NCBI GenBank assembly: GCA_945860225.1
Contig: CAMAPT010000002.1
Location: 62,001 to 126,000 of the forward strand
DNA length: 64,000 nucleotides
Direction of reading: 5' to 3'
Source of the DNA: Chitinophaga pinensis
Lineage (GTDB): Bacteria > Bacteroidota > Bacteroidia > B-17B0 > Aurantibacillaceae
Under the pieces are notes generated by a model that made no database searches, was not told the DNA's origin, and saw only the letters and a list, made by a program, of their open reading frames with translations. Numbering within the stretch: position 1 is the first letter of the stretch; every line of letters begins with the position of its first letter. The translations under genes were made by a program, and so were the position numbers. Shown here one piece after another: positions 9,868 to 30,844 of this stretch.

Positions 9868-9873
9868 TCAGTT

Positions 9874-10830
9874 ATGTTAATTTTAAAGAAAAATATTTTT
9901 TTTTCATTTTTGATTTCACAATTCATTTTATGCAGTTTAAATTTATTTTCGCAAATTGAACATAGATTCAACTATTATATTCCTCTCGATTTTCAATTGA
10001 ATCCTGCAAAAATTGAGAATAATAAAAATGGCATTTATTTTTACCATAAAAACCAATGGTTAAAAAGTTTTACAAGCTTCAGAAAGTTTAATTCAATTTC
10101 AGGTCATTATAAATTGAAGGATAATTTTTTTATTGGAGGCAATCTTAACAGTAATAAGTATAGTAACTCATTTATGACAAACATTTTTCAATTAAATGGT
10201 GCTTGGAAGGGTAATTTGAATGATGAAAATGATAAGTATTTTTCCCTCGGCCTCGGGGTTAAGTATTACAGGATGAACTATCAACCACAAGATCTTATAA
10301 TATTTGATAATTTTGATCCCCAGTTTTTAAATATTGAATATAAAAACAAGAAAACGGATTTCAGTTCTGGTATTTTTTTTAGATTCAAATCTCTCAAATT
10401 ATCTTTTGCTAATACCGATTTAATTGGCCTCGTTTCAAAAAAACAATACAATAGAAACAATGAAATGATTTTTGAAATTGGATATTTATTTAATACAACT
10501 GACAATTCGGATCATTATTATGATGAATTAACCCAAATTAATTTCAGGATAAGTAAAAGTGAATTGTATTATGAAAAAATTTCAGTAGACATAAATTATG
10601 ATTACTACGCAAATCAAAATTATGCTTTAGGTGTTGGGATTAGGCAAAATTTTAAAAACGAATTTAGTTTTTCAACAATGGAAAGCAACGCCCTATTTTT
10701 TAGGGTTTTATTTAAGTTAGGCAAAATCCAAAAATTCACTTGTGGACTTGGGTACGATGTCAATACAGGTATGAAAAGCGGTTATTTGCCTTCCTCGTAC
10801 GATTTATTAATTGGATATCAAAAAGAATAA
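9874..10830 (+). CDS. PorP/SprF-family outer-membrane protein (T9SS partner)
   Basis: A 318-residue protein with a signal peptide ending near NLFSQIEH, followed by alternating beta strands typical of the PorP/SprF barrel. Landmarks are LNPAKIENN, KLKDNFFIGGNL, FSLGLGVKYY, SSGIFFRFKSLKLSFA, FEIGYLFNT, YALGVGIRQNF and a C-terminal SSYDLLIGYQ. In this family the barrel helps a specific T9SS type B substrate to reach or attach to the cell surface. Here the substrate is most likely the adhesin encoded 6 bases upstream. It is shorter and more divergent than SprF, and the call rests on pattern and gene pairing. Confidence 0.75.
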   Translation: MLILKKNIFFSFLISQFILCSLNLFSQIEHRFNYYIPLDFQLNPAKIENNKNGIYFYHKNQWLKSFTSFRKFNSISGHYKLKDNFFIGGNLNSNKYSNSFMTNIFQLNGAWKGNLNDENDKYFSLGLGVKYYRMNYQPQDLIIFDNFDPQFLNIEYKNKKTDFSSGIFFRFKSLKLSFANTDLIGLVSKKQYNRNNEMIFEIGYLFNTTDNSDHYYDELTQINFRISKSELYYEKISVDINYDYYANQNYALGVGIRQNFKNEFSFSTMESNALFFRVLFKLGKIQKFTCGLGYDVNTGMKSGYLPSSYDLLIGYQKE

Positions 10831-10848
10831 ATTTTTATTTCTTTAATC

Positions 10849-12006
10849 ATGAAACTTCGAAATCAATTTATAATTCTGGTCTTTTTTTATGTAATAAGCC
10901 TATTTCATTCTGCTATAGTTAAGGCACAGTCAATTATTACCTTCAATAATTTAAACTTTCAGATTTTTCAAATTAAAATAGATGCTGAAATCGGAAAAAA
11001 ATTAAAAATTATTCCTAACTATTCAGTTATGAAATTTAAGGATTTTCTAGAAGAAAATATTTTAAACAGTGATTCAGATATTTTTATTACAAATGCCTGT
11101 ATAAACGATGTAAACGGATCGCCAATTGGCCTTCTAAAATCGAATGAAACAGAGATTTTAAGTTTAAATTTAAACGATGGATCGGGAAATTTTTATTTAA
11201 AACCAAATGGTTTTTTAGCTATTACTAAAAATGATGCCATTATAGCAGAATCATCTAACTACTTTAAAACTAGTAATGTTTTACATGCTGCACAATCAGG
11301 CCCAATGCTTATTTCAGATAAAAAAATTAATTCACAGTTTAATCCAAATTCAAACAATAAAAATATTCGGTCAGGGGTGGGAACATACACCGCTAATAAT
11401 CAAAAATATTTGTTATTTTCCCAGTCGATTGATCCTGTTTCTTTTCATGAGTTTGCATCTTTTTTTCAAAATTACAATTGTGCCAATGCGCTTTGTCTTG
11501 AAAGTGTAAACTGTGCAACTTATCAAAAACATACTCAACTAAACAATAATGACTTAAATAAAAAAATTGGTTCATACATTGTTTATAAGCCAAATTTTAA
11601 TCCTACAAAAAACTCAAACAGTGTTAAATTGATTAGGGTAAATGCGGGAGTATATGAAATACCTGTTGAGCTTAATGGTGTATTGAAAATCAATTTTATT
11701 TTTGATTCAGGAGCCAGTGATGTAAGCATTTCTCCAGATGTAGCAATTACCTTAATTAGAACCGGTACCATAAAAGATGAAGATTTTATTGGCACTCAAA
11801 CATATTATTTTGCTGATGGTAGTAGTGCTACAAGTAGGGTATTTGTTTTAAAACAAATTAAAATTGGAAATACTTACTATAAAAACATACGTGCTTCTAT
11901 TTCAAACTCCATTAATGCGCCAATGCTTTTGGGACAAAGTGTGCTTCAACGAATCGGGAAATTCACAATTGATAATAATAGTAATATGCTATTGATACAT
12001 GAATAG
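10849..12006 (+). CDS. Fusion of phosphodiester-glycosidase-like domain and retropepsin-like aspartic protease
   Basis: A 385-residue exported protein with a signal near SAIVKAQS. Residues about 35-235 resemble the NAGPA/DUF2233 phosphodiester glycosidase fold: FITNACINDVNGSPIGLL, FYLKPNGFLAI, AAQSGPMLI and IRSGVGTY. The usual acidic LDG motif is replaced by CLESVNC, so catalysis may be lost. Residues about 255-385 form a clan AA aspartic protease domain with FDSGASDVSI (D286-S-G-A-S), a hydrophobic ligand-fold segment and the late LLGQSVLQR motif. A single retropepsin-type domain would have to dimerise. The gene lies 18 bases after the PorP/SprF gene, probably in the same transcript. Its substrate is unknown. 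Confidence 0.75.
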   Translation: MKLRNQFIILVFFYVISLFHSAIVKAQSIITFNNLNFQIFQIKIDAEIGKKLKIIPNYSVMKFKDFLEENILNSDSDIFITNACINDVNGSPIGLLKSNETEILSLNLNDGSGNFYLKPNGFLAITKNDAIIAESSNYFKTSNVLHAAQSGPMLISDKKINSQFNPNSNNKNIRSGVGTYTANNQKYLLFSQSIDPVSFHEFASFFQNYNCANALCLESVNCATYQKHTQLNNNDLNKKIGSYIVYKPNFNPTKNSNSVKLIRVNAGVYEIPVELNGVLKINFIFDSGASDVSISPDVAITLIRTGTIKDEDFIGTQTYYFADGSSATSRVFVLKQIKIGNTYYKNIRASISNSINAPMLLGQSVLQRIGKFTIDNNSNMLLIHE

Positions 12007-14319: not shown

Positions 14320-15933
14320 TTATTTCAAATAAATTCCCCTTGAATTAATTTGAAATTGTTTTAAATTATAATTGTACTGATTGTTAAGTTGCTCTTTTTT
14401 TTTCTTTTCAATGCATCTAATAACTTTTGAAATATCTATTGTGATAATTGCGGCAGCGGTTAGTGCAGATGCTAATGAAATATTTTTAAATAAATTAGAA
14501 TTTTTATTATACTTATTATATAAACTTTCATTTTCAGAATTTAAATAATTAGTATTTGTGATTTGAGATAGTTTATGAAAAAACAAGGCATTAACTATTA
14601 ATGAATAGCTTATTAAACCTTTTCTAAACTCAGTTGATTCGTCTGTAAAATCATTTGTTCCCCAACCAGGCCATAATAATGATTTTACAATATTTTTGCC
14701 CGTAGGTATATGACTTTGCTGGTTACCGATAATTTGGAAATATATTTCGTCGTAATTTGAATAGCCATCTTTTTTAAAATCCCATATTGCCTTTTTTTGG
14801 TTACAGCCTTTTACTAACTTAAAATCTCCGCTTAACGAATTTAGTTTTATTTCCCCTCGGTTTTTTTTGAATGCCCTAATTTTAATATTATAAATTTCGT
14901 CACTATTACAATTGTCAATTTCATATTTCAATTCTAATTTAGTGTTGCTTGAATTAAAATTATGACTTATTTTACTAGAGATGTTGTTATAAATATTTAC
15001 AGTTTTTTCAGCATATTCAGACTCTTTGCCATTACCAACAGATCTTACATAATAATTTGTATTTTCAAATGGTCTTACAGTAATTTCTGGGCCATAGCCA
15101 ATTGGATTAGAATAAATACTGTTTTCGTACCATTGCCATTGATAACCATTGCATAAATCGGAATTTTTAACTCTTAAATTAACTTCATCACCAAATGATA
15201 TGTAATCTTTACCCTCAATAGATTCGGGTTTTTTAATTTTAGGTATAACCTCAATCTCTGTGCAGGAAGTTACATCTTTTCCTTCGGCTCTAACAAAATA
15301 CTTAGTATCTTTTGTAGGAGTTGCATAGATGTAGCTGCCCTTTCCTAAATATGTTCCACCACAACTATTTTCGTACCAATACCAAGCCGATCCAGGACTT
15401 AAACTTCCTCCTTCCACATCTAATCTTGCACTTTCTCCACAATAAAAATCTCCATTAGTTTTAATTCTAGTTGGTTTGGTGGATTTATCGTTAGTTTTAG
15501 TTCCTTGATTTAGCTGAGGCTTATTATTATAGCTTTTTATATTATAAAAATTATCAGAAATTTCTGAAGCATAAAAAGTTAGCACACCATCTGCATCATT
15601 CTTAGGTTCTCCATTTTGAACTAAAGATCCGTTAAATATAGGATTTTCTTTACTTATATTGAATGCCTGATCAATGAATCGATTATCACCATTGCAATCA
15701 ATATAATCAATCCGATAAATCAGATATTGTGAAAAGTCATATATAGTACCATATAATCTATATTTAATAAAAACCGGTTTACCAACATTACAACCCCTGT
15801 TATTAAACGATATTTCTATAGTTAAACCTTTTTCCTTGTATAATAACTTCCAATCAGTCCAACTCTGAGCAAAAGAATTAGAAAAAAAAAATGAACAGAT
15901 CAAAAACGTTAAACTAATTTTTAGTATTTTCAT
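14320..15933 (-). CDS. Secreted Ig-repeat protein with C-terminal membrane-anchoring segments
   Basis: A 537-residue protein with a signal peptide (cleavage near SFAQSW). An N-terminal beta domain (about 25-140; IDYIDCNGDNRF) is followed by two Ig-like repeats with the pattern W-x-W-x-E...Y-F/Y-V-R (AWYWYENSCGG...YFVRAEG, WQWYENS...YYVRSVG). A beta domain around 315-400 comes next, and then a tail with LLWPGWG and two hydrophobic segments (about 440-455 and 485-500). The N-terminal domain and Ig repeats match those of the protein at 23086-25443, so they are paralogues with different C-termini. It is divergent from the next gene, with only 7 bases between the starts. Function unknown. Confidence 0.7.
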   Translation of the reverse strand: MKILKISLTFLICSFFFSNSFAQSWTDWKLLYKEKGLTIEISFNNRGCNVGKPVFIKYRLYGTIYDFSQYLIYRIDYIDCNGDNRFIDQAFNISKENPIFNGSLVQNGEPKNDADGVLTFYASEISDNFYNIKSYNNKPQLNQGTKTNDKSTKPTRIKTNGDFYCGESARLDVEGGSLSPGSAWYWYENSCGGTYLGKGSYIYATPTKDTKYFVRAEGKDVTSCTEIEVIPKIKKPESIEGKDYISFGDEVNLRVKNSDLCNGYQWQWYENSIYSNPIGYGPEITVRPFENTNYYVRSVGNGKESEYAEKTVNIYNNISSKISHNFNSSNTKLELKYEIDNCNSDEIYNIKIRAFKKNRGEIKLNSLSGDFKLVKGCNQKKAIWDFKKDGYSNYDEIYFQIIGNQQSHIPTGKNIVKSLLWPGWGTNDFTDESTEFRKGLISYSLIVNALFFHKLSQITNTNYLNSENESLYNKYNKNSNLFKNISLASALTAAAIITIDISKVIRCIEKKKKEQLNNQYNYNLKQFQINSRGIYLK

Positions 15934-15940
15934 AATCCAT

Positions 15941-16717
15941 ATGCAATTTATAAAAATATTTAGAAAAAAAGTTAAACTATTTTTATTAATAACTTTTTTA
16001 GTAAATGGTATTATAACATACTTAATAGTTAATCACTTTCAACAATTTGAGCTTGAACAAGGATTTGAAAGGGTGAATATTTGTGAAGGAAACCGAATCA
16101 GATTTTCAAACTATGAGACAAATCCGTTAAGAAAACTATCAGGCGAAGAGAAAATTAAATCTTGGATATTAGATTCTATAAACTATTATGAAATTAAAGA
16201 CCTTAAACTTATAGCTGATTCATTAAGTCAAATTTTAAGTAGTGATAGTACAGAAGAATTAATTGTAGAAATATTTACAAATGGTTTAAAAAATAAATTA
16301 AATTGGAAAAATGAATATTTACCTGATTTAATGTGTGAGATAGCTAATTGGTCTGAGAACTTAAACACACTTTCCAACATTAGTTTAAATTATTTATGTT
16401 GGAGAAGAGTTCATAATTACTGGTATAAAGAAATATCAGGTGTTTTATCAGAAATGATTAATAAAGACGAGTATATAATATATAAATCACGTTTCAATTA
16501 TTTAAATGAAAAATGCATTCAGAATAAGTTTATAATAGGAATTCAAACTTCTAATACAGAAAAAATATTCTTCCACCTTAGAAAAGGAAATTTCAAATAC
16601 CTAACTAATAGAATTAATGACAATATCCCAACATATTTAAAAATTTTATTTTTTACATTAACTTTAGCAATAATTGTTTTTTATTTAATAACAAAGCACA
16701 AAAAAAAATCAAAATGA
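15941..16717 (+). CDS. Two-TM protein of unknown function, module copy 1
   Basis: A 258-residue protein with one hydrophobic helix at the N-terminus (about 13-30), a mainly helical charged middle and one at the C-terminus (about 228-247), ending in a Lys-rich tail. It resembles the protein at 25449-26177 in length, topology, lysine tail and position rather than in an obvious motif. Its stop overlaps the ATG of the following glycosidase-like gene by four bases (ATGA), exactly as in the second copy. Most of the chain would lie in the periplasm if both helices span the inner membrane. Confidence 0.65.
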   Translation: MQFIKIFRKKVKLFLLITFLVNGIITYLIVNHFQQFELEQGFERVNICEGNRIRFSNYETNPLRKLSGEEKIKSWILDSINYYEIKDLKLIADSLSQILSSDSTEELIVEIFTNGLKNKLNWKNEYLPDLMCEIANWSENLNTLSNISLNYLCWRRVHNYWYKEISGVLSEMINKDEYIIYKSRFNYLNEKCIQNKFIIGIQTSNTEKIFFHLRKGNFKYLTNRINDNIPTYLKILFFTLTLAIIVFYLITKHKKKSK

Positions 16718-17592
16718 AATCAATTTTAACTTTAATATTTACAACAGTTTTTTTCTCTAATTCTTTTATTAATCATTTTAGTTATGATGAAAAATATGTG
16801 CAAATAATCACAAATATTTACAAAGGAGACAAATTTATATTTGTAAAAATGAGAAGGGAAGGTGAAAGAATTAAAGCTAAATATTTTGCATCAAAAGAAT
16901 TTGGTAATACAGTTTATGAAAGATACAGTGAATGGAGTAAAGGAAAAAATATTATTCTCGCATGTGGTGCAGCATATTTTGATTGGGGTATTCCAAAGTT
17001 TGATTATAAAAAAGCTACACCAGTAGGCATAACTATTGATAATGGCAACGTTGTTAGTTATAAAAAATCGGATAGAGGTAATGGATTAGTTATAGTATAT
17101 GCTACTGGGGGTATTGCATGTTCAAATATTAAACAAGGTAAATTAAAAATGAAATGTAGTGGTGAGTCTTTTATTTTTAATGTTAATCAGGACAAAGATT
17201 TGAATAGATTCATTGAATGTTCTAAAGAAGTTAATGCAACAGTTTTTCAACAACACTTATTAGCCTATGATGGCAAGCTAAACCAACTAACAAATTTCAG
17301 TACTGAAAAGAAAGAGCGCAGATTCTTAGTTGTAGGATATGACGAAAATAATAAACTTTTTCACATAGTAATTCATTATCCGACATCATCTTCCCTTAAA
17401 GATGCTGCAGAAAAAGTTTTTAATTTCTTAATGGATCAAGAATTAACTAAAATAGAATTTATGGTTAACCTTGACACCGGGTATCAAGATGTATTTAAAC
17501 TATATGATACTAATGGATCTGAAAAAAATGACATTAAAGGAACAGAACCCTTAACATCCTCAGTAAATTTACTCGTATATTATTACGAGTAA
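16714..17592 (+). CDS. Exported phosphodiester-glycosidase-like protein, module copy 1
   Basis: A 292-residue protein with a signal-like N-terminus (FFSNSFINHFS). It follows the order of the NAGPA phosphodiester glycosidase fold: IILACGAAYFDWG, TPVGITIDNGNVV, a gly-rich strand pair, VFQQHLLAYDGKL, ERRFLVVGY and NLDTGYQDVF at about residue 252. In typical members that last motif is NLDGG or LDG. The glycine is Thr here, so activity is uncertain. It overlaps the preceding 2-TM gene by four bases and is a paralogue of the protein at 26174-27019. The fold call is by motif order, not by a search. Confidence 0.7.
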   Translation: MKSILTLIFTTVFFSNSFINHFSYDEKYVQIITNIYKGDKFIFVKMRREGERIKAKYFASKEFGNTVYERYSEWSKGKNIILACGAAYFDWGIPKFDYKKATPVGITIDNGNVVSYKKSDRGNGLVIVYATGGIACSNIKQGKLKMKCSGESFIFNVNQDKDLNRFIECSKEVNATVFQQHLLAYDGKLNQLTNFSTEKKERRFLVVGYDENNKLFHIVIHYPTSSSLKDAAEKVFNFLMDQELTKIEFMVNLDTGYQDVFKLYDTNGSEKNDIKGTEPLTSSVNLLVYYYE

Positions 17593-17623
17593 ATAAATAT
17601 TTTCTAATTCAAAAAATAAAATT

Positions 17624-18790
17624 ATGAATAAAAGTTTTATAGCATTTAATACGTTATTAGTGAATTCAATTATTGTAGAATTAGTTTTTTTATGCCATTT
17701 GACATTGCATTCAAACTCAAATAAAGAGTTAAATTTTATTCCGCAAAAAATAGATAGTTTACAATTGTTAATTGATAATTATGGAAAACATACACTAAAT
17801 TATGATGTAATTGTTAATTTAATTGATCAAAAATCTAAAGACACGAAATTAATTGAAGATAATTTATTAGCTCTAAAAAACATCAAAATAGAAATATGCA
17901 AAAAAATAACTAATCCTAAATTAATAAAACAATTTGATAATTTAGTTGATTCATTAGTTAAAGAAAAAGAGAAGATTAATAAAAAAAATCTGCTAGCAAT
18001 TGATTCGTTGAAGAAAGAAGTAATTAAGGAAGATAATCTTGTTGATTATTCCTTTAATGAAATCCAAAATATGTTATCAAAAAAACAAGGGAGTATTCAT
18101 TTTACGTTTAAAGGATCTGAATTTTATTTTTTTGTTGCAGATTTAAATAAAAACGATGTACGCTTGCACTGGAAAAAAGACAGCATACAAAAGCATTCAA
18201 ATTTAAACTCGGTTATTGATTTAATTAAAAAGAAATATAAACAAAAACCTTTATTAGTTACTAATGCAGGCATGTTTGAAGAATCTCAAAAACCACTTGG
18301 CTTGTACATAGAAAACAACAAAGAATTTGTTCCGTTAAATGAAAAAGATCCAAATGACGATAATTTTTATTTAATGCCAAATGGAGTTTTTTTTATTGAT
18401 ACAGCTAATCATGCTTTTATCAAAGAAACTAAAGACTTTAAAAAAGATTATTCAAAAAAAATGAAATCCATTAAATTAGCTACTCAATCCGGGCCGTTGC
18501 TACTAAACAATAATGTGATACATAAAGAATTTCAAAAGAATTCACCAAATAATAAAGTAAGAAATGGTGTTGGTATAATTAATCAATCAAAAATTGTTTT
18601 TGGTTATTCTGACAACGTAAATTTTTATTTATTTACTGAAATATTTAAGTATTTTTTTAATTGTAAAAATGCATTATTTCTAGATGGGGCAATATCAAAA
18701 ATGTATTTATACGATTTAAGGCCAAATGATCTTGGCGGTGAATTCGGCCCAATAATATCAGTTTCAGAAAAAAAATCTCAACAAAATTAG
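17624..18790 (+). CDS. Exported coiled-coil protein with phosphodiester glycosidase (DUF2233/NAGPA) domain
   Basis: A 388-residue protein. An N-terminal hydrophobic segment (about 8-26) is followed by a Lys/Asn/Glu-rich helical region with coiled-coil character (about 30-145). The C-terminal domain (about 150-388) is the clearest glycosidase-type domain in the cluster: LLVTNAGMFEE, PLGLYIEN, FYLMPNGVFFI, ATQSGPLLLNN, VRNGVGII and ALFLDGAISKMY with the acidic LDG intact. The family includes the enzyme that uncovers mannose-6-phosphate and bacterial phosphodiester glycosidases. It lies between module copy 1 and the GTPase core and has the same strand as both. Confidence 0.78.
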   Translation: MNKSFIAFNTLLVNSIIVELVFLCHLTLHSNSNKELNFIPQKIDSLQLLIDNYGKHTLNYDVIVNLIDQKSKDTKLIEDNLLALKNIKIEICKKITNPKLIKQFDNLVDSLVKEKEKINKKNLLAIDSLKKEVIKEDNLVDYSFNEIQNMLSKKQGSIHFTFKGSEFYFFVADLNKNDVRLHWKKDSIQKHSNLNSVIDLIKKKYKQKPLLVTNAGMFEESQKPLGLYIENNKEFVPLNEKDPNDDNFYLMPNGVFFIDTANHAFIKETKDFKKDYSKKMKSIKLATQSGPLLLNNNVIHKEFQKNSPNNKVRNGVGIINQSKIVFGYSDNVNFYLFTEIFKYFFNCKNALFLDGAISKMYLYDLRPNDLGGEFGPIISVSEKKSQQN

Positions 18791-18817
18791 TATCATTCTA
18801 TTATATGATTAATTTTG
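18787..18817 (+). promoter_or_regulatory. Putative promoter of the GTPase-core genes
   Basis: TTAG, a 19-base spacer and TAATTTTG match the Bacteroidota promoter TTTG-N19-TAnnTTTG with one mismatch in the -33 box. The start codon of the next gene is 21 bases downstream. It suggests that the genes from 18838 onward can be transcribed apart from the upstream module. Confidence 0.5.
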
Positions 18818-18837
18818 TCTTACTTTAAATAACACAT

Positions 18838-19920
18838 ATGGATGAAAATAAAAAAATACCAGGAATTGTTCAGTTAGGAGCATGGTTATTAAGTTTAATA
18901 GTTTTTGCAGTTGGCTTTTGGCATACACATTTGGGGCTTAAAGAAATGAGACCTTTTGGCTCTGAATATGGAAGTATAGCTATTGCAGCAATTATTTTTT
19001 TGCTTTTAATCATAACTTATTGGTTCGCAGTTAATGGACGAAAAATGGCTCTTATTTTTTATTTAATCTGTGGACTATTCTTTTTTGTTTTTAATTTAAA
19101 TTATTTTTATCCTGCCTATATGGCAAGAGAATTAGTAAAGGAGGAAGCGATTGCATTAAATGATACACTTCAAAAATTCTCAAATAAATCTCAAAGTTAT
19201 TTTAAATCTGAAACTATTCAAGAGTTAACGAACTTAAATACTTTAAAAAAACAACTTGTTGATGAAGTGAAAAATCAAACTGGGTGGGGGCCAAGAGCTA
19301 CTGATTATTTAAATCAGTTTAATTTTATTACAAAAGGAAATCAAAAGCCAAACAATAGTCTTGGGTCTAATCAGGATGAACGTGACGATATTGCTGAAAG
19401 ATATGAAGATCTTTTGGAGGAGCAAATAGATGCTTTTGTATTAAGAACTGTAGCTAATAATAAAATAGGAAACCCAAAAATCATACTAGAAGGTATTAAG
19501 GATTTAAAAAAAGCTAAAGAGCAGTACACTGAAAAATTAAAACTAATTATTGAAGATGATTCAGAAATTCAGTTAGATTCTTTAATAAATTTAAGGCAAA
19601 AGGGATCTAATCATCCACAAATTCAATTGCTACAAAATTTAGTTACAGATATAGATAATTCAACAAAAAAAATAAATGAAGGCAATAAAGAAGAAATTTA
19701 CCCCATTTTAAAAGAGGCAGAAACCAGAAATTTAGGAAGGATAAAACACACCTTAAATTCGGTTAAGAAAAGGTTATCTGAAACAGATACCTTGGGTATA
19801 ATTTTCGTTTGTTTATTTATAGATTTATTAGTTCCCTTAGCAATCTATTTATTATTGCGAAAAAAAGAGGGAGATAGTGACGATGATTCTTCATTTGCTT
19901 CTGGACCAGATTCTTTTTAA
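18838..19920 (+). CDS. Polytopic inner-membrane protein, GTPase-system component
   Basis: A 360-residue protein. It has three N-terminal transmembrane helices (about 9-30, 44-67, 70-95), a long charged helical region predicted to form coiled coil (about 95-315), and one C-terminal helix (about 319-340) with an acidic Ser/Asp tail. The start ATG follows the predicted promoter. I do not recognise a family. The neighbours (GTPase, single-TM companion) suggest a membrane scaffold on which the GTPase acts, which is inference from gene order alone. Confidence 0.7.
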   Translation: MDENKKIPGIVQLGAWLLSLIVFAVGFWHTHLGLKEMRPFGSEYGSIAIAAIIFLLLIITYWFAVNGRKMALIFYLICGLFFFVFNLNYFYPAYMARELVKEEAIALNDTLQKFSNKSQSYFKSETIQELTNLNTLKKQLVDEVKNQTGWGPRATDYLNQFNFITKGNQKPNNSLGSNQDERDDIAERYEDLLEEQIDAFVLRTVANNKIGNPKIILEGIKDLKKAKEQYTEKLKLIIEDDSEIQLDSLINLRQKGSNHPQIQLLQNLVTDIDNSTKKINEGNKEEIYPILKEAETRNLGRIKHTLNSVKKRLSETDTLGIIFVCLFIDLLVPLAIYLLLRKKEGDSDDDSSFASGPDSF

Positions 19921-19943
19921 TTTACACTTTTTTTAATTATATT

Positions 19944-20867
19944 ATGACAAATAATTTTTTAGATGAACCACAAAATGTTAATGAACTTGGAGGGCATGAA
20001 ATCGCTACCGAATTTTCAAATTTAAAAGCATTAGACTATGTTACTGTAATACCTATAGGCTTTCCTAATGCAGGCAAAACATTATGGCTAGCATCAATTT
20101 TATCATACGCAAAAAATACAACAAGCCCGTTGTTCTCTATTACGCGTCAACGTCAATTTCCATTTAATGGAGGATTTAGAGTAGCAGATGAATTAGATAA
20201 TAATTTTAAACGCGGTGGAAATTTACCAGGTCGAACAATTACTGGTACTCTAGATATTTTTGGACTTAATATTTTACCAACTAAGGAGAAATTAAAAAAA
20301 TTAAACCTTGCTTTTTTAGATTTAGCGGGTGAGGATATTCAAAAAATTAGAACATCTGTTCGAGGAGATTTTTCAAGTAAAATTAAAGCGATTTTTAATG
20401 GATTGGGAATTGATAAATCGCCAATTATTTTTGTTTTAATTACTCCGTTTGCCCCTCCAGCAAAAAAAGGTCAATCTATTTCTGATGCACATAAAGATGA
20501 AGACAGTTTACATTCTGATTTTTTAAACTATCTACAAGTGGACGAACCAGAATTGATGAAGCATAGTAAATTTTTTATTGTTGTTTCTCAATGGGATAAA
20601 AATACTGATCAAAAATTGTCTGTTGAAAATTTTATAAAAAATAACAGACCATCCCTTTATTCTATTGTAAAAAATGTTTCTGTTATATGGGGAAATTATT
20701 CAATTGGGAAAATTTTAGAAACTTATAACGAATCCGATGGTACAATAAATGCTAATTTAGCTACCATTGATAAAGTGTCTCCTGAAAGATTTTGGAAGAA
20801 AATTTATCAAGTTTGTACAGGGAGAGAGCTAGATGAAAAAACTTGGTGGGAAAAATTATTTAGTTAA
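19944..20867 (+). CDS. Divergent TRAFAC-like P-loop GTPase
   Basis: A 307-residue soluble protein. Walker A is GFPNAGKT at residues 39-46. A beta strand then leads into AFLDLAGED (D126-L-A-G-E), the D-x-x-G switch II, and later comes FFIVVSQWDKN, where SQWD (215-218) stands in for the NKxD base-specificity motif. A long insert with a Phe/Pro-rich segment lies between switch II and this motif. This order fits a small GTPase of the trafficking type. In overall design it recalls the double-GTPase family described in bacterial conflict operons, but only one GTPase domain is seen. The next gene starts 2 bases after its stop. Confidence 0.78.
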   Translation: MTNNFLDEPQNVNELGGHEIATEFSNLKALDYVTVIPIGFPNAGKTLWLASILSYAKNTTSPLFSITRQRQFPFNGGFRVADELDNNFKRGGNLPGRTITGTLDIFGLNILPTKEKLKKLNLAFLDLAGEDIQKIRTSVRGDFSSKIKAIFNGLGIDKSPIIFVLITPFAPPAKKGQSISDAHKDEDSLHSDFLNYLQVDEPELMKHSKFFIVVSQWDKNTDQKLSVENFIKNNRPSLYSIVKNVSVIWGNYSIGKILETYNESDGTINANLATIDKVSPERFWKKIYQVCTGRELDEKTWWEKLFS

Positions 20868-20869
20868 TT

Positions 20870-22168
20870 ATGGCAGATTATTTAGTTTTCTTTGGTAGCT
20901 CGGAAGGGTTTAATTGTGAAGTATTTGACAAAGAAGGGATAAATATTAACTTCAATCGATCATTTCCTGATTTTGAACATTTTGAATCGAAAGTGTTTTA
21001 TACGGACCGTGCTGATAATAAACCAATATTAGCAAAGTATAAGCTAAAAGTTGCAGGTAAATCGATTACTTTATTGAAACATTATACATTTGCTCAATCT
21101 TCATTTAGCTCAAGAATAGAAGGTAGTAATATTGGAGTTGCATTTTTATCTGAGGATGATTTATCTCTAAACAAAATAAATTATACATTATTAAAAAATC
21201 TCCTATTAAAATTTCAGCAAAAGACATTAGACAATTACAAATTTGGAAGTGGTAATTTTTCTAAAGAAGCCATGGAGGTGTTTCAGGAATTTAAAAGTAC
21301 AAATTCATTTTCCATAATTGAAAAACAACACCTAAAATCAGATTCAAATTTTCAAGTTGTTCCCTGTGGATTTTTCACATCTGATTTTAGCGATGATTTT
21401 TTTAAAAAAATCCCAGATAATTTCGACAGAATATATTTAACCACAGATAAAGATCATTTAAAAAGAGCTTTTGATAGCACATCAGGTAGGTTTAACGTGT
21501 GGTTTGTTGAAAACAATAAATTAATTAGTTTAAGGGAACAAAATGAAATAAAAAAAACAGATGAACGTAAATTAAATCAAATCCCAACTAACAATACTTC
21601 AAGTAATACTAATTATAGCAATTCAAATTCTAACCAAAATGAACTACTAAAAAATGAATTTAATCAATTAAAAAATAAATATAAATTTGTCTTAAAAAAG
21701 AAAAAACTATTAACATCAATAGTTGCTATTCTATCAATACTTCTTTTAATATCCTTGCTATTTAATATTTTTAAAGGGGGGAATGTAAAAAAAGAAGCAG
21801 CAATTTCAAATACGCAAGAAAAAAATACTTCTAACGTTCAGTTTGTAAAACCAGAATTTAATGACATTGCTGTTAGTTTTGTCGATAGCATTATTGATGA
21901 TAAAGATAAACTTAAAAATTTTACAGGTTTTTTACTTTTTATAAATAACATTAAAAACGAAAAAATTACCACTGTAACACTTGAAAAGTTTGAGGAAATA
22001 AAGTTAGATATTGAAAGTTATGGCATACTAGAATTTGATGAACCATTTTTAAAAAAACATCAGATTAAAATAACTAAAGAACCAGTAATTCCTGATTCTG
22101 AAGTAAAAAAAAATAAAACTTTAGCTACAGATAAAAATAAACCATCAAAAAAAGATAACACTAAATAG
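20870..22168 (+). CDS. Single-TM companion of the GTPase, GAP1-like in layout
   Basis: A 432-residue protein. The N-terminal globular domain (about 1-230) has a segment with basic and aromatic residues and SSRIEGSNIGVAFLSEDDL near 78-98. It is followed by an Asn/Ser-rich linker (about 232-256), a coiled segment with Lys-rich end, one transmembrane helix (about 281-301), and a C-terminal part ending in Lys/Pro. The N-terminal domain is therefore likely cytoplasmic and next to the GTPase. Its pairing with a GTPase resembles the GTPase-associated protein 1 layout, but I cannot confirm homology. The start lies 2 bases after the GTPase stop, so the two are co-translated. Confidence 0.7.
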   Translation: MADYLVFFGSSEGFNCEVFDKEGININFNRSFPDFEHFESKVFYTDRADNKPILAKYKLKVAGKSITLLKHYTFAQSSFSSRIEGSNIGVAFLSEDDLSLNKINYTLLKNLLLKFQQKTLDNYKFGSGNFSKEAMEVFQEFKSTNSFSIIEKQHLKSDSNFQVVPCGFFTSDFSDDFFKKIPDNFDRIYLTTDKDHLKRAFDSTSGRFNVWFVENNKLISLREQNEIKKTDERKLNQIPTNNTSSNTNYSNSNSNQNELLKNEFNQLKNKYKFVLKKKKLLTSIVAILSILLLISLLFNIFKGGNVKKEAAISNTQEKNTSNVQFVKPEFNDIAVSFVDSIIDDKDKLKNFTGFLLFINNIKNEKITTVTLEKFEEIKLDIESYGILEFDEPFLKKHQIKITKEPVIPDSEVKKNKTLATDKNKPSKKDNTK

Positions 22169-22211
22169 CTATATACAAAAGCTGTACTATTTAGTTTTTT
22201 TAATTAACAGT

Positions 22212-23072
22212 ATGAGTAATCAAAATTCTATTAATAGCCAAGATGTTTTAAAAGCTTTTAAATCAAACAACAAAGAACGCTTTTGGAAAGAAAAAATTAT
22301 TGCATTAGCGGTATTATTATCTTTGTGTTTAATTTTATATTTTATATTCAGTGGCAATAAAACCAAGGACTTTGCAAGTAGATTTCAAGGAAATATAGCA
22401 ACTAAAACTAATTTAATTTTATACTTATCTGCAAAAGATGGTGTTTTAAGCGGTTATTATTATGATTTCTGCGATTCAATCAAAAAAACAAATATCAAAG
22501 GAGCCTTAGATGAAAATGGAAAATTTGTTTTAAATGAATTAGAAGAAAATAATCCAAATTCTCCTTCATTAAATGGTTCTCTAGGTGAAGATGGAAGTTT
22601 AAGTGGAGAAAGGGTAGAAAACTTCAGTAACACAAAATCGAGTTTTTATTTTGCAAGAATAACTGCTATACCTTCAATAAATTGTGAGGAGGTAATTAAA
22701 AAAGGGCCAAAAAGACCTGGAAAAGTTACAACGAAAATTCCCCCAACACCACAACCAATTAAATTGGAAGTTAAAGGAAAAGATTTAAAAGATTTAAGAA
22801 GTAAATTGGATAAGAGAACTAAAAAAATAATGGAGGCAATTAATTATATGCCTGAAAATATAATTTTAGATATTTCGAATTATAAATTCACTTGTGATTT
22901 AATTCCAAATCCATCAGCTAATTTTTCTAAAATTGGGTTGTTTTTTGGTCCAAAATCAAATGGTTTTTGCGAAAGTTGTTCAAATGTATTAAATAGAAAT
23001 CCAGGCTCTGAAGAATTAATTAAAGATGAAGACAAAGATTATTATTATTCTGTAATAGCTATTTCAAAATAA
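22212..23072 (+). CDS. Single-TM membrane protein with exported beta domain
   Basis: A 286-residue protein with one transmembrane helix (about 29-46) after a short basic N-terminus. An exported domain of beta-strand type follows (KTNLILYLSAKDGVLSGYY). A Pro/Thr-rich linker (GKVTTKIPPTPQ) comes at about 168-180, and then a C-terminal domain holds two Cys pairs (FCESCSN at about 258-264 and earlier singles). The segment around GSLGEDGSLSGER is reminiscent of exported beta proteins such as the one at 4567-5469, though the match is weak. It sits in the same run as the GTPase genes and the barrel protein. Confidence 0.65.
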   Translation: MSNQNSINSQDVLKAFKSNNKERFWKEKIIALAVLLSLCLILYFIFSGNKTKDFASRFQGNIATKTNLILYLSAKDGVLSGYYYDFCDSIKKTNIKGALDENGKFVLNELEENNPNSPSLNGSLGEDGSLSGERVENFSNTKSSFYFARITAIPSINCEEVIKKGPKRPGKVTTKIPPTPQPIKLEVKGKDLKDLRSKLDKRTKKIMEAINYMPENIILDISNYKFTCDLIPNPSANFSKIGLFFGPKSNGFCESCSNVLNRNPGSEELIKDEDKDYYYSVIAISK

Positions 23073-23085
23073 TATTTTAAATAAT

Positions 23086-25443
23086 ATGATTGCAAAAATG
23101 ATGTCAACTAGATTAATTTTTTTTATTTTTTGTTTAATAAGCATAGTTAGTTTATCACAACCCATTACACCTTCTTGGCAAAAGTCAGTATCAATATACA
23201 GCGATAATGATATTAAATTGAAAATATGTATGAAAATTGATAGTTCTAATTGTGGCTATCAAACTAATGCAATTTCGGAGTATAAATTTAAACTTGCAGA
23301 AAAGTCAGATAATTTTAATGATAAATACATTACATTTTCATTCGATTATGTAAATTGTAATAATCAAATTATTACTAAAATAATTTCTGTAGATGTTTCA
23401 CAAAATAGTTCGGGTGAAGAAATTGAATCTCAAGATTTTCAAATTAGACTTAAACGCTTATTTTCAATAGATCCTAAAGCTCCCAGTTATTTTTATGATG
23501 CAAGAAGAAGTAATTCGCCAATAAATTCTGAAAGTAAAAAATATCCTAGTGACCCAAAAAGTATAACAGGGAATGCTCAAATTATACTGGGAGAAAAAAC
23601 AACATTAACCGTTGATGGTGAAGATTTAATTGAACCTTCAAAATGGGTTTGGCACAAAGAAAGTTGCGATGGTGAGAAAGTGGGCGAGGGGAAAAGAATA
23701 ACTATTAGTCCTAATGAATCAACCACGTATTTTGTCAGAGCAGAGAATAAGAGTTTGGAATTTAATTCTAAATGTAAGCAGATTACAGTAAGGGTAAATG
23801 CAAAGAGTTTTGAAGCTGAACAAATTATAGGCAATAAAATAATTTGTCAAGGTAAATCGACTAACTTGGAGCTTAAAGGAGGTAAACTAGGAAAGGGAGC
23901 CAAGTGGGTATGGTATTCATCAAATGATTTTTCTGAAAAGTCTAAAATATCTGAAGGTAATAGTTGTTTGGTGTTTCCAAAAATAAAAACAGTTTATTAT
24001 GTAAGAGCTGAAGGTGATGAAAATATTACAACTCCTGTTTCTTTTGAAGTTGATATTGCTGAAAACTCTGTTAAACCAGACAAAATAAGAACCGTATCGG
24101 AGAAAATATGCGTAGATGAAATTGCTAATTTTTCTGTCGAAGGCGGTAATTTAGGTACGAATTCAAAGTGGGTTTGGTACGATGAGAATGATAAAATGCT
24201 TACTAACGGTTCAACGGCTAATGTTAGAATTAAACTTGGCGCACAACTTATAAAAGTTAGGGCTGAAGGCCTTTGTAATAATACTGATTACACAACAGTT
24301 TCGATAGAGGGTTTGTCGAATTCTAAAATATTTGGTATATCTGAAAATAAATTTGATGAAAAATACAATAAACTTACCGTTAGTGGCTATTTGGGAGATA
24401 AAGCGCAATGGGTTTGGTATGTGAATTCTAAAAAAAACCCATCTGAGTTTAATGATATAAAAGGAAAGGGAACAGAAATAAAAGTGCCAATTAAAAAAAC
24501 GAGAGTATATAAAATTATTGCTGAAGGCGGATTATGCGATAACAAATCTGATATATCAAGTTTCCATTCCATAGAAGCATATAAAAAAACGAAATTAAAG
24601 CGTAAGTTAGATATTGTTTACTATAGAGAAGATTTTAACGATGCCAGAAAAAAGAATTTTCATTTAGGTTTTGGTGTTGGTATTTATAATCAATATAATT
24701 CAGTTTCACTTTTAGATAATCAAATAAATAACAGTAAATTATTTTCGGTTGATTCTGCAAATAAATTTAAAATAATCACTAACGGTTTATCATGGGATAT
24801 TACTTTTACTCCGTTTATTTTTGAGGAACATAAAAATCAATCTAATAATAAGTTTTCAGCTAGTTTATCCTTTTATCATAAAGGAGGGGTTGCTACATTC
24901 GATAAATTAGCTAATTCTGAAATAGGTAATAATATTATTCAATCAAATATATCGGATACTATTGGTAAAATTGATAAGGTTGTATTTAATAAGTCTATGT
25001 ATAACTGCCAGGGGGTTGAAATTGTTTTAGGATTTAGGGGTTTCAGATTTTATTATTCATATGAAAATGAATTGAATTCATTAAGTTTAACGGCACAATT
25101 TCAAAAATATCAACAAATACTGCCAATTTATTCAAAACCTGAAAATTTTAATTTTAATGAAGAATTATCTCTACAGAAAAATAAATATGGTTTTAGGTTT
25201 GGTAGATATGCCAGCAAAAATAAGCTAGGACATAATAGGGGTTTAACTTACGACATTTATGCAATGTCGGTAAATAGAGTAAGCAATGATCCAACATTGA
25301 TAAACCATTTTCCAGCTTACGGTATAGGGTTTTCCTTGTGGGCACAAACTATGATGAAAGTAAACGCAGAAGTAATAGCATTTTCTAATTCAAATGTTTT
25401 AACCAGCTTAAAATTAAATTTGAATCTTGATTTATTTTATTAA
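23086..25443 (+). CDS. Exported Ig-repeat protein with C-terminal beta-barrel-like domain
   Basis: A 785-residue protein with a signal peptide (cleavage near SLSQPI). An N-terminal beta domain (FSFDYVNCNNQII) is shared with the protein at 14320-15933. Four Ig-like repeats (about 155-500) follow, each with W-V-W-Y/H and YFVRAE or similar (KWVWHKESCDG...YFVRAEN, KWVWYSSND...YYVRAEG, KWVWYDEN...IKVRAEG, QWVWYVNS...YKIIAEGG). The final 260 residues show alternating strands with Phe/Tyr and aromatic C-terminus (LNLNLDLFY), consistent with an outer-membrane barrel. It starts 13 bases after the upstream stop. It would link the system to the cell surface. Confidence 0.72.
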   Translation: MIAKMMSTRLIFFIFCLISIVSLSQPITPSWQKSVSIYSDNDIKLKICMKIDSSNCGYQTNAISEYKFKLAEKSDNFNDKYITFSFDYVNCNNQIITKIISVDVSQNSSGEEIESQDFQIRLKRLFSIDPKAPSYFYDARRSNSPINSESKKYPSDPKSITGNAQIILGEKTTLTVDGEDLIEPSKWVWHKESCDGEKVGEGKRITISPNESTTYFVRAENKSLEFNSKCKQITVRVNAKSFEAEQIIGNKIICQGKSTNLELKGGKLGKGAKWVWYSSNDFSEKSKISEGNSCLVFPKIKTVYYVRAEGDENITTPVSFEVDIAENSVKPDKIRTVSEKICVDEIANFSVEGGNLGTNSKWVWYDENDKMLTNGSTANVRIKLGAQLIKVRAEGLCNNTDYTTVSIEGLSNSKIFGISENKFDEKYNKLTVSGYLGDKAQWVWYVNSKKNPSEFNDIKGKGTEIKVPIKKTRVYKIIAEGGLCDNKSDISSFHSIEAYKKTKLKRKLDIVYYREDFNDARKKNFHLGFGVGIYNQYNSVSLLDNQINNSKLFSVDSANKFKIITNGLSWDITFTPFIFEEHKNQSNNKFSASLSFYHKGGVATFDKLANSEIGNNIIQSNISDTIGKIDKVVFNKSMYNCQGVEIVLGFRGFRFYYSYENELNSLSLTAQFQKYQQILPIYSKPENFNFNEELSLQKNKYGFRFGRYASKNKLGHNRGLTYDIYAMSVNRVSNDPTLINHFPAYGIGFSLWAQTMMKVNAEVIAFSNSNVLTSLKLNLNLDLFY

Positions 25444-25448
25444 TACAA

Positions 25449-26177
25449 ATGTTAAACATTAATAGAATTCATAAAATTTCCTCACTGCTTTTAGTATCAA
25501 TTATTGTTTTTTTAGTAACGTATATCGTTCTGAAAAATGATACAAATACTGAATTTCAAAATAATTCTTTATTGTTTCAAACAATAAAGAATAAAAAAAG
25601 TAGCAATAAACTTTTTAATTCATTTATTAATGAACAAGCCTATAGCCAACCACTTGCCCTAGAGTCATTTATAAATAAAAATCTTATACAGACTGAAAGC
25701 GATATTGCTAATGTGGCATATACCCTTATAACAGATTCAGTATACAAAATTGAATTTGATTCTTTAACTTACAATCCTGATACTATTTTTAATTTATTAC
25801 TATGGGCGGATGATTTTTATCATTTTAGATCTAGCGACACTTCACAACTATCAATAGTCTACCAAGCTGTTAATAGTTTTTGGATGAATAAAATTACAGA
25901 TTGTGTTAAATCTGCTTGTGAACAAAATCCCAACTTAAAATATGACAAAAGGTTTTATGTTATTTTAAAATTATTAGATGCTAAAAAATATTCTATTGGA
26001 GTCAAATATTCTAGTTTTGAGAAGTTTATAGATAATTTAGTTAAAAATAATTATGCATATATACTAAACCGATTGATTATTGAAACATCCTGGTTAACAA
26101 AAATTTTATTAATATTACTAATTGTTTTAATCTTTATTGGGAATTATTATTATTTAAAAAAAATTATTAAAAAATGA
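25449..26177 (+). CDS. Two-TM protein of unknown function, module copy 2
   Basis: A 242-residue protein with an N-terminal helix (about 10-28), a charged helical middle, a C-terminal helix (about 214-236) and a Lys-rich end (KKIIKK). It has the layout of the protein at 15941-16717 and the same four-base ATGA overlap with the following glycosidase-like gene. It starts 5 bases after the barrel protein, so the genes are likely one transcript. Confidence 0.65.
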   Translation: MLNINRIHKISSLLLVSIIVFLVTYIVLKNDTNTEFQNNSLLFQTIKNKKSSNKLFNSFINEQAYSQPLALESFINKNLIQTESDIANVAYTLITDSVYKIEFDSLTYNPDTIFNLLLWADDFYHFRSSDTSQLSIVYQAVNSFWMNKITDCVKSACEQNPNLKYDKRFYVILKLLDAKKYSIGVKYSSFEKFIDNLVKNNYAYILNRLIIETSWLTKILLILLIVLIFIGNYYYLKKIIKK

Positions 26178-27019
26178 AAATTATTGTTATTCTTTCCTTT
26201 TTATTACTGTCTAATTCATTCATGAAATTTGGATATGATTCAGATTATGTAACTTTTTCTTCCCCAGTTTATGACGGTTTAACTTTTAAAATCATAAAAA
26301 TGGAGAGAAGAGATAATCATATTAGAGCTAAGTATTTTGCAGTTAAAGATTTAGATGGTAAAAACGTACCTGATAGATATAAGGAATGGTCTAAATCTAA
26401 AAACATTATTACTGTTTGTTCAGGAACATATATGGATAAATGTGATCCTAATGCAAAACCTGTTAGTATAACTATTGATCAAGGTAACATTGTAAACAAA
26501 ACAATAACCTCAATGGATGGTGTTGTAACTGTTTTTTCAAGTGGTGAAATTGTTGTTGGTAATATTAAACAGGGTGACTTAAAAATTGCTAATAAGAATT
26601 ACAACTTAAAAAATCCATTAGAGTCTGAAAGTTTTTTTAAATGGGCACAGACTAATAAAGCAACTGTTTTTCAAACACATTTACTAATCTATAAAGATGA
26701 ATTAACTATATATGAAAACAGTAGTAAAAATGCCCGAGAAAGAAGATTTTTAGCCGGATGCACTGATGATGAAGGTAATAAATATGAATATATTATACAT
26801 ATTCCTGAATCAATTACACTTTTTGAAGGTGCAAAAAATACTAAAAAATTTTTAAAAATAAAACAACAAATGAAAACATTAGACTATCTTATTAATTTAG
26901 ATACAGGTTGTCAAGATTTTTTCGAAGCATACAACAGTAACGGACAGAAAAGAAATGATTATGCAGGAAGAGAGGTTATTTCAAATTCCATTAATTTAAT
27001 AAGTTTTTATTTTGAATAA
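26174..27019 (+). CDS. Exported phosphodiester-glycosidase-like protein, module copy 2
   Basis: A 281-residue protein. A short hydrophobic start is followed by the same motif order as the protein at 16714-17592: IITVCSGTYMDKC, PVSITIDQGNIV, VVTVFSSGEIV, VFQTHLLIYKDEL, ERRFLAGCTD and NLDTGCQDFF at about residue 241, with a C-terminal RNDYAGREV segment. The NLDTG motif shares the Gly-to-Thr change with copy 1, which supports a common origin rather than random drift. It is the last gene of the run. A 175-base gap without a clear terminator separates it from the next gene. Confidence 0.7.
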   Translation: MKIIVILSFLLLSNSFMKFGYDSDYVTFSSPVYDGLTFKIIKMERRDNHIRAKYFAVKDLDGKNVPDRYKEWSKSKNIITVCSGTYMDKCDPNAKPVSITIDQGNIVNKTITSMDGVVTVFSSGEIVVGNIKQGDLKIANKNYNLKNPLESESFFKWAQTNKATVFQTHLLIYKDELTIYENSSKNARERRFLAGCTDDEGNKYEYIIHIPESITLFEGAKNTKKFLKIKQQMKTLDYLINLDTGCQDFFEAYNSNGQKRNDYAGREVISNSINLISFYFE

Positions 27020-29649: not shown

Positions 29650-30276
29650 TTATAAATCTAATTCAGGTTCAACTGTTCCTTCATTTAAGTTTGTTACAGA
29701 TTTAATACTAGGTAATTCTTCTGAATTTATATTTAATTTTCTTTTTCTCTTTATAGCTTTCGAAGCTGGTTCTTTAACAACATCTGGTTCTGTAACTGGA
29801 TTTTGAGAAATTACTTCAGATGAAACTTCTACGGAGTCTTTATTTATAGCTTCTTCCTTTGTATTTAAAGCCGCTGAGTCTTGGTTTACTTTAACTTTGG
29901 TAGGCAATTCAGATTTTTTATTGTTGACCATTTCTGTTTCATAAATTGGTCTGCGTTGCATTTCCAAATCTCTGTAGTCTGCCATTAAAGGTTCTCCATT
30001 TCCCATATTAGGATTTTTCTTAAAATCTATTAGCGTAAACAGCATAGATGAAAAACCACTAATAAGAGCCATAAAAACTAAAAACAAAACAATAGTTTTA
30101 TTGATGTTGAGGTCGATTTTTTGAAAGTATTTGGAAAAATTCAAATGGTTATTTCTTCTTGAATTGGTGATATGTTCAAACTTTTCCCATGTAGCTTCAT
30201 CAAACTCCAACTCAGAGTTTTGCATCAAATGTTTGATTTGATTTTCATCTAACTCGTAATTAAACTGCCGACTCAT
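29650..30276 (-). CDS. Single-TM protein paired with a sigma factor, possible anti-sigma
   Basis: A 208-residue protein. The N-terminal region (about 1-50: LDENQIKHLMQNSELEFDEATWEKFEHI) is cytoplasmic and helical. One transmembrane helix (about 57-78) follows, and then a Lys/Glu/Ser/Val-rich, low-complexity periplasmic tail. The start overlaps the end of the sigma-like gene by 17 bases, the usual tight linkage of ECF sigma factors and their membrane regulators. No anti-sigma motif is recognised, so the regulator role is inferred. Confidence 0.65.
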   Translation of the reverse strand: MSRQFNYELDENQIKHLMQNSELEFDEATWEKFEHITNSRRNNHLNFSKYFQKIDLNINKTIVLFLVFMALISGFSSMLFTLIDFKKNPNMGNGEPLMADYRDLEMQRRPIYETEMVNNKKSELPTKVKVNQDSAALNTKEEAINKDSVEVSSEVISQNPVTEPDVVKEPASKAIKRKRKLNINSEELPSIKSVTNLNEGTVEPELDL

Positions 30277-30844
30277 AATTGCTTAATTTAAGATTTGTTT
30301 CAATATTTTTTTGAAGATTAAATCTGGCTTTTTCCAAAGTTGATTTAATACTTTGTTCATTTGTATCTAAAAATTCTGATGTTTGTAATAATGAATAATT
30401 GTCTATAACAACCAAATTAAAAGTCATTCTTTGTGAAGGCACCAACGATTGTAAAGATTTGATTAGTACATCTTTATTAACATTTTTCACATCAATAAAT
30501 TTACTGTCTAAAAACAAATCGTAAGTTTTATCCGGATCATCAATGGCTTTTACCGTGCTGGCAACATAATATTCGCTTCTTATCTCTTTGATGTAATTTA
30601 CCGCGAAAGAAATAAACTCATGTTTTATAAATTCATTTATAGTTAATGAACTTTGAGATTTGAATTGGTTAAGTTTTGAAAATACATGAGCAAAACCCTG
30701 CATTGCAATATGCTCAGATTGTGAAGAATTTTTTGAATATCGAAGTGCTACATGCGATATCTTACCAAAGTAAGTATCAAAAAACTGTTTTTTTGCAACT
30801 TTGTTATTTTTGATACATGAGGCTATTAAATCAGCTTGAAACAT
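30260..30844 (-). CDS. Divergent ECF-like sigma factor
   Basis: A 194-residue protein with a weak region-2-like N-terminus (KKQFFDTYFGKISHVALRYSKN) and a clearer region-4-like C-terminus: SLQSLVPSQRMTFNLVVIDNYSLLQTSEFLDTNEQSIKSTLEKARFNLQKNI, where LPxxxR...F.L...G.s..EIa..L gives the helix-turn-helix. The polymerase-binding region 2 is poorly conserved. It is encoded just upstream of, and overlapping, the single-TM partner gene, and opposite to the arginase-fold gene. Target genes unknown. Confidence 0.72.
   Translation of the reverse strand: MFQADLIASCIKNNKVAKKQFFDTYFGKISHVALRYSKNSSQSEHIAMQGFAHVFSKLNQFKSQSSLTINEFIKHEFISFAVNYIKEIRSEYYVASTVKAIDDPDKTYDLFLDSKFIDVKNVNKDVLIKSLQSLVPSQRMTFNLVVIDNYSLLQTSEFLDTNEQSIKSTLEKARFNLQKNIETNLKLSNYESAV

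Follow-up and report, generated by a model that had tools for sequence, protein, structure and literature searches.

A 64,000-nucleotide window of Chitinophaga pinensis DNA (assembly GCA_945860225.1, contig CAMAPT010000002.1) carries, at positions 18838-22168, three adjacent genes that probably constitute a membrane-associated GTPase switch, in which an envelope sensor sets the state of a GTPase via a membrane-tethered longin partner. The genes encode, in order, TM4, a tetraspan membrane protein; a DO-GTPase1-like GTPase; and a third protein with a predicted longin domain and a single transmembrane (TM) segment. This trio is found in 26 other loci of Bacteroidota and relatives, with gene order and strand kept. 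A first-pass annotation of the window had proposed a larger entity: a trans-envelope system with a motor or switch core at 18838-23072 and a duplicated surface module (Ig-repeat protein, 2-TM protein, and NLDTG protein). Conservation is confined to a core of three genes and does not extend to the entire cluster; the duplicated genes around the trio are local additions, and the surroundings of the trio vary from locus to locus.

A search of the phylum with the GTPase returned one homologue at 48% identity and three remote ones, and all four lie between the same upstream and downstream genes. A class profile search and a scan of named genomes widened the homologue set beyond these four. (Single-sequence GTPase scans of genome contigs, viral contigs, and plasmids gave no match; the alignment-based scan did find homologues.) Loci were put through a uniform open reading frame (ORF) analysis, and trio partners were identified by profile hidden Markov models. 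The 26 loci comprise 22 distinct loci with enough contig, three from a search with TM4, and L040; L021 duplicates L006. Wherever the contig allows, the genes share one strand in the order TM4, GTPase, third gene, with gaps of -34 to 145 bp. (In L024 and L025 the contig ends before TM4.) At L040 the other two genes flank a GTPase match (G749:C440:1288-2052, minus strand) that is overlain by an ORF on the opposite strand.

The association also holds in the independent direction. The TM4 profile alone, run against 390 phylum genomes, found nine matches including that in its own genome; in all of the other eight genomes TM4 has the GTPase and third gene as neighbors, and three of these are the new loci counted above. 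With the trio in about 2% of the phylum genomes sampled, the number of examples is small. They come from Kapaibacterium, Ignavibacteria, Chitinophagaceae, Sphingobacteriales, Bacteroidales, Saprospiraceae, Flavobacterium, Halpernia, and Flectobacillus, with sequenced isolate genomes among the Flavobacterium, Flectobacillus, and Halpernia examples. Some loci are near relatives of one another (L027/L030/L036 and L032/L033/L035), and 23 third-gene proteins are left at 70% non-redundancy. Left out of the count are L042 and L043, whose remote GTPases reside in SrfB/SrfC operons that lack both TM4 and the third core gene.

The same comparison redraws the system first proposed. Its core survives as a probable inner-membrane and cytoplasmic GTPase switch at 18838-22168, for which we prefer "switch" to "motor"; the gene at 22212-23072 is not conserved with the trio in other loci. 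Membership of the modules is not supported: an Ig, 2-TM, or NLDTG gene is missing from all 26 trio loci outside the window, the NLDTG gene is in no other genome tested, and GTPase homologues regularly occur without the modules.

The first-pass annotation called the P-loop protein a GTPase, and its sequence places it with the DO-GTPases. The window protein scores 26.3 bits against Pfam DO-GTPase1 (PF19975), just under the cut-off of 27; two homologues exceed it (31.6 and 27.1 bits), and 15 of 16 match at E ≤ 0.001. Its motifs GFPNAGKT, DLAGE (G129 E130), and SQWDK are represented across the homologues as the P-loop, a DxxGE Walker B, and [ST][QK]WD. Residues G129 and E130 are invariant in the alignment (A7), and the conserved Walker B glutamate expected of the family is present. 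Each trio has one GTPase, and the genome has one match. Profiles of all the core proteins, searched against PDB sequences, found nothing convincing.

The third protein is predicted to consist of a longin domain (residues 1-150), a helical region, a single TM segment at about 280-298, and a carboxyl-terminal tail. In an AlphaFold2 model built from 15 sequences, residues 1-236 mostly have a predicted local distance difference test (pLDDT) score above 75, dipping to about 60 at 31-50, and the amino-terminal region mostly scores 80-94. The order of elements assigned by DSSP, beta-beta-alpha-beta-beta-beta-alpha-alpha, is that of longin domains (beta2-alpha-beta3-alpha2). Structural comparison by VIA-align placed a Lokiarchaeal longin first (Z 10.4; 3.4 A, 131 residues), followed by Lst4 (Z 10.1) and FLCN (Z 8.9), with 131-132 residues aligned in the two best rows. 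KICSTOR/GATOR1 chains, TRAPP, DENN, SNARE longins, and TagF also ranked near the top; all 31 top rows are longin-superfamily proteins or TagF, and the first outsiders appear at Z about 6. The Ego3 structures 4fuw and 4ftx reach Z 5.6-5.8; the matches are mostly longin, and no Roadblock Pfam match was found. Residues R82 and G85 are invariant in 29 of 29 third-protein sequences, and R82 is the sole invariant charged residue. In the model it sits in the loop between strands 64-76 and 85-94, making it a candidate arginine finger. In two eukaryotic longin GTPase-activating proteins (GAPs), a loop of the longin domain supplies the arginine finger: SMCR8, Arg147 (PMC8213707), and NPRL2, Arg78 (PMC8534245).

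Hydropathy analysis of TM4 identifies three amino-terminal TM helices, a helical loop of about 212 residues, and one carboxyl-terminal TM helix. Lysine plus arginine per residue in 25 TM4 homologues is 0.22 in the inside segments and 0.03 in loop 1-2; by these positive-inside counts the large loop (187-235 residues across homologues) is predicted to be periplasmic. The TM4 model is all helical, with low-to-middling confidence, and a fold search with it gave generic helical matches only.

These features suggest a model for the trio. TM4 would keep its helical domain in the periplasm, where it probably senses the envelope state; the GTPase would act at the cytoplasmic face of the membrane. The third protein, tethered by its one TM segment, would bind the GTPase through the longin domain, hold it at the membrane, and set its nucleotide state. 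It is most likely a GAP employing the invariant Arg82, with exchange-factor or docking roles as possibilities. The GTPase would then hand its state on to host-specific clients. The operon also takes in exported or surface proteins that differ between hosts and are probably clients or outputs of the switch. In the window these are the duplicated Ig/2-TM/NAGPA-like module plus a NAGPA protein; in other loci they are retropepsin-like exported proteins, DUF805 membrane proteins, or an RHS-repeat protein. We infer complex formation, the GAP role, envelope sensing, and the client relationship.

Several points weigh against this reading. We know of no experiment on any member of the trio, and a fold alone does not establish function. 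Best Z scores of 7-8 are common in VIA-align without real kinship, and just two rows exceed 10. Foldseek gave no match at E ≤ 0.001 (the best E was 0.017), its top structured matches being TagF and FLCN. Pfam, PDB-sequence, and profile comparisons revealed no sequence-level link between the third protein and any longin, TagF, or GAP1 family.

DO-GTPases are known as switches of conflict systems with the partner GAP1 (Kaur et al. 2020, eLife, PMC7159879), and a survey of phage-shock systems linked them to membrane stress (PMC11237479). The trio might then be a reduced branch of these defense systems, the third protein being a diverged GAP1 and the variable genes effectors against phage or rivals, an explanation that we consider unlikely. 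The two share a GTPase Pfam family, a partner encoded directly downstream (as GAP1 is; PMC7159879), frequent membrane association, and variable accompanying genes. The patchy occurrence of the trio fits too, as do the DUF262-like and other possible defense genes near some trios, although such neighbors are scattered singletons among ordinary genes. The third-protein motif SxRxG[TS]FxGxSI resembles SGRPGNVFAHVVL of a confirmed GAP1-N2 protein, but profile comparison (hhalign) with that Rhodococcus plasmid protein was negative; as this was the one template, there is room for a remote kinship. Pfam GAP1 families matched none of five third-gene proteins at E ≤ 1, nor two more at E ≤ 0.1, and GAP1-N2 is absent from 148 phylum genomes. 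(GAP1-N could itself be longin-like.) Unlike DO-GTPase/GAP1 systems, the trio has one GTPase rather than two, no recognized GAP1-N/M/C, no GASH or FNIII component or known effector domain, and a tetraspan protein as a constant third part. Paired paralogous GTPase genes occur in 38% of the described systems and are not obligatory; the same paper mentions neither longin, Roadblock, nor tetraspan proteins (PMC7159879). Pfam detected no GASH, FNIII, or known effector domain in the window genes, whose Ig_7 repeats belong to exported proteins that do not accompany the trio elsewhere, and PADLOC anti-phage models matched none of ten window proteins at E ≤ 1. Separately, the Rhodococcus opacus plasmid pRho-G13 (L106:2218-7574) encodes the confirmed GAP1-N2 protein next to an 860-residue protein that may be an FNIII component.

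Two further explanations are each less likely still. That 14320-27019 as a whole is a single trans-envelope machine, its core the GTPase and its surface parts the modules, draws on the one directon at 15941-27019, with its small gaps and modules on both sides of the trio; yet the modules accompany no other trio, searches of 99 relatives and 389 further genomes of the phylum found no NLDTG gene, and in many genomes the trio stands alone. The other places an apparatus for protein export or contact-dependent delivery under the control of the trio, much as TagF represses type VI secretion. TagF has the highest probability among the Foldseek matches (0.93), aligns over residues 1-216 of the third protein (Z 8.1), and matches its fold over 161-194 residues; in addition, an RHS-repeat protein is encoded directly upstream of three trios. 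These RHS genes are confined to one genus, however; the third protein has no TagF match in Pfam at E ≤ 1; and no type VI secretion gene was recognized near any trio among the top 25 families listed from flank scans. Moreover, the partner described for TagF is Fha, not a GTPase (PMC5995506).

The switch that we favor also invites comparison with other GTPase modules. MglA/MglB is likewise a two-gene pairing of a GTPase with a small alpha/beta partner, of the related Roadblock/longin group; the trio differs in that its partner is longin-type (by the model) and membrane-anchored, its GTPase is DO-GTPase1-like, and it has a constant tetraspan protein. The eukaryotic longin GAPs FLCN-FNIP, GATOR1 (NPRL2), and C9orf72-SMCR8 share with it the structural match, a conserved loop arginine, a GTPase partner, and a membrane setting. 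In contrast, the trio is bacterial, lacks a DENN domain and sequence similarity to these proteins, and has one longin gene, so that a homodimer would be required. To our knowledge, no TM anchor or tetraspan partner accompanies the Asgard longin proteins. These provide the best structural match to the third protein, with no sequence link (8yqg; PMC10933270).

The SrfABC-type operons mentioned above (L042:7491-18782 and L043:7643-19862) resemble the trio in having a remote DO-GTPase-like gene just after a membrane protein gene, but carry SrfB and SrfC homologues. Their upstream membrane proteins and third genes were considered as homologues of TM4 and the third protein and rejected, profile comparison showing no relation. 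The DO-GTPase-like gene in these operons suggests that a GTPase switch can be part of SrfABC-type loci.

Many trios have no accompanying genes. Where neighbors do recur, a gene for a retropepsin-like exported protein or lipoprotein follows shortly after the trio in six independent loci (L006, L020, L025, L026, L028, and L038), with the active-site motif DxGA in those read; DUF805 membrane protein genes lie near the trio in five loci; and a protein of about 1780 residues with RHS repeats is encoded 71-81 bp upstream in three genomes of one genus. A divergent Cro/C1-type regulator is immediately upstream in several loci. In one of these (L008:12934-16690) the trio sits beside such a regulator and a protein read as DUF262-like, a defense-island-like setting.

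The NAGPA gene beside TM4 in the window adjoins none of the other trios. The NAGPA-retropepsin fusion at 10849-12006 matches the fourth-gene family c3 and is a possible relative of the retropepsin-like gene found after the trio in other loci. Because retropepsin-like genes follow the trio elsewhere, this fusion, together with the NAGPA gene beside TM4, may be functionally linked to the trio. The modules, in turn, share a directon with the trio in this genome and for that reason may be clients of the switch locally.

Table 1. Genes of the cluster and its surroundings, with RHS-repeat genes upstream of trios in other genomes (window coordinates unless a locus is named)
Feature	Position	Strand	Basis
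Ig_7-repeat protein, module copy 1 (inverted)	14320-15933	-	Pfam; pairwise comparison
2-TM protein, module copy 1	15941-16717	+	pairwise comparison; hydropathy
NLDTG protein, weakly NAGPA-like, module copy 1	16714-17592	+	Pfam; pairwise comparison; genome searches
Exported NAGPA phosphodiester-glycosidase-domain protein, in TM4's directon, 47 bp upstream of TM4	17624-18790	+	Pfam NAGPA, 61.6 bits
TM4, core gene 1, tetraspan membrane protein, proposed sensor	18838-19920	+	hydropathy; positive-inside; model
DO-GTPase1-like TRAFAC GTPase, core gene 2, putative switch	19944-20867	+	Pfam PF19975; motifs
Longin-domain (predicted) protein, core gene 3, proposed GTPase partner	20870-22168	+	AlphaFold2; VIA-align; alignment
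Single-TM protein, family not recognized, same directon as trio	22212-23072	+	Pfam; hydropathy
Ig_7-repeat protein, module copy 2, same directon	23086-25443	+	Pfam; pairwise comparison
2-TM protein, module copy 2	25449-26177	+	pairwise comparison; hydropathy
NLDTG protein, module copy 2	26174-27019	+	pairwise comparison; genome searches
NAGPA + retropepsin-like fusion	10849-12006	+	Pfam NAGPA, 53.9 bits; gag-asp_proteas, 47.3 bits
RHS-repeat protein upstream of trio	L104:5227-10563; L105:3756-9101; L009:169-3792 (cut by contig end)

Within the cluster, the first-pass description is largely borne out (Table 1): every ORF that it listed was recovered in place, and its TM counts agree with hydropathy analysis. 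The duplication of the three-gene module is real, all three pairs being similar in sequence: the NLDTG proteins (39% identity, full length, E 1e-64), the 2-TM proteins (24% over 102 residues, E 5e-8, with a common two-TM layout), and the Ig-repeat proteins (27% over 320 residues, E 5e-20). These E-values are for single comparisons, and are far from chance. The last two module genes overlap by four nucleotides in both copies (16714-16717 and 26174-26177), and the inversion is limited to the Ig gene of the first copy, as had been noted. Of three proteins called glycosidase-like, that at 17624 is clearly NAGPA, well above the Pfam cut-off of 25 bits. For the NLDTG pair the label is motif-based and weak: the protein at 16714 scores 17.6 bits against NAGPA, below the cut-off, that at 26174 has no NAGPA match in Pfam, and hhalign found no link between NLDTG and NAGPA profiles of two sequences each.

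The ten genes at 15941-27019 are all on the plus strand, no gap between them exceeding 47 bp, and a single transcript is plausible; promoter and terminator counts show no excess over shuffled sequence. Bacteroidota-type features of the window include a Type IX secretion sorting domain and PorP/SprF. At 6388-12006 lies a Type IX secretion unit: a GEVED/Ig_7/CHU_C cargo, a PorP/SprF partner, and then, 18 bp on, the NAGPA-retropepsin fusion.

The window sits in a 160-kb contig, and the region is not contamination, since its flanking genes have close counterparts throughout the genus: the formimidoylglutamase gene (31126) at 77-89% identity, and the gene that lies at 1628 at 72-87%. The region is lineage-specific, because nothing from the 4.2-31 kb stretch follows either flanking gene in the genus members examined, and the GTPase and NLDTG genes are lacking in relatives (the GTPase in 59, 19 of them of the same genus). 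At 29650-30844 a gene for a sigma-70 region-4-like protein overlaps one for a single-TM protein, a possible sigma/anti-sigma pair; it is not beside formimidoylglutamase in the genus relatives examined.

Longin-type control of GTPases has been described for eukaryotes and Asgard archaea, and Ras-like switching in bacteria is mostly known through MglA and its Roadblock partner, MglB. Proteins of the longin and Roadblock type are regarded as platforms for GTPases, and Roadblock is sporadic among bacteria (PMC10933270). The first-pass annotation knew of no described system with the full set of genes at 14320-27019, and our searches of the open-access literature found no paper on the trio at 18838-22168. 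Possibly the trio represents an undescribed class of bacterial transmembrane signaling, in which a tetraspan periplasmic sensor is coupled to a GTPase via a membrane-tethered longin GAP, and longin-controlled switching at membranes travels as a mobile operon in Bacteroidota. If so, this compact operon would allow longin-based control of GTPases to be tested in a simple bacterial model, and would bear on the origin of longin domains.

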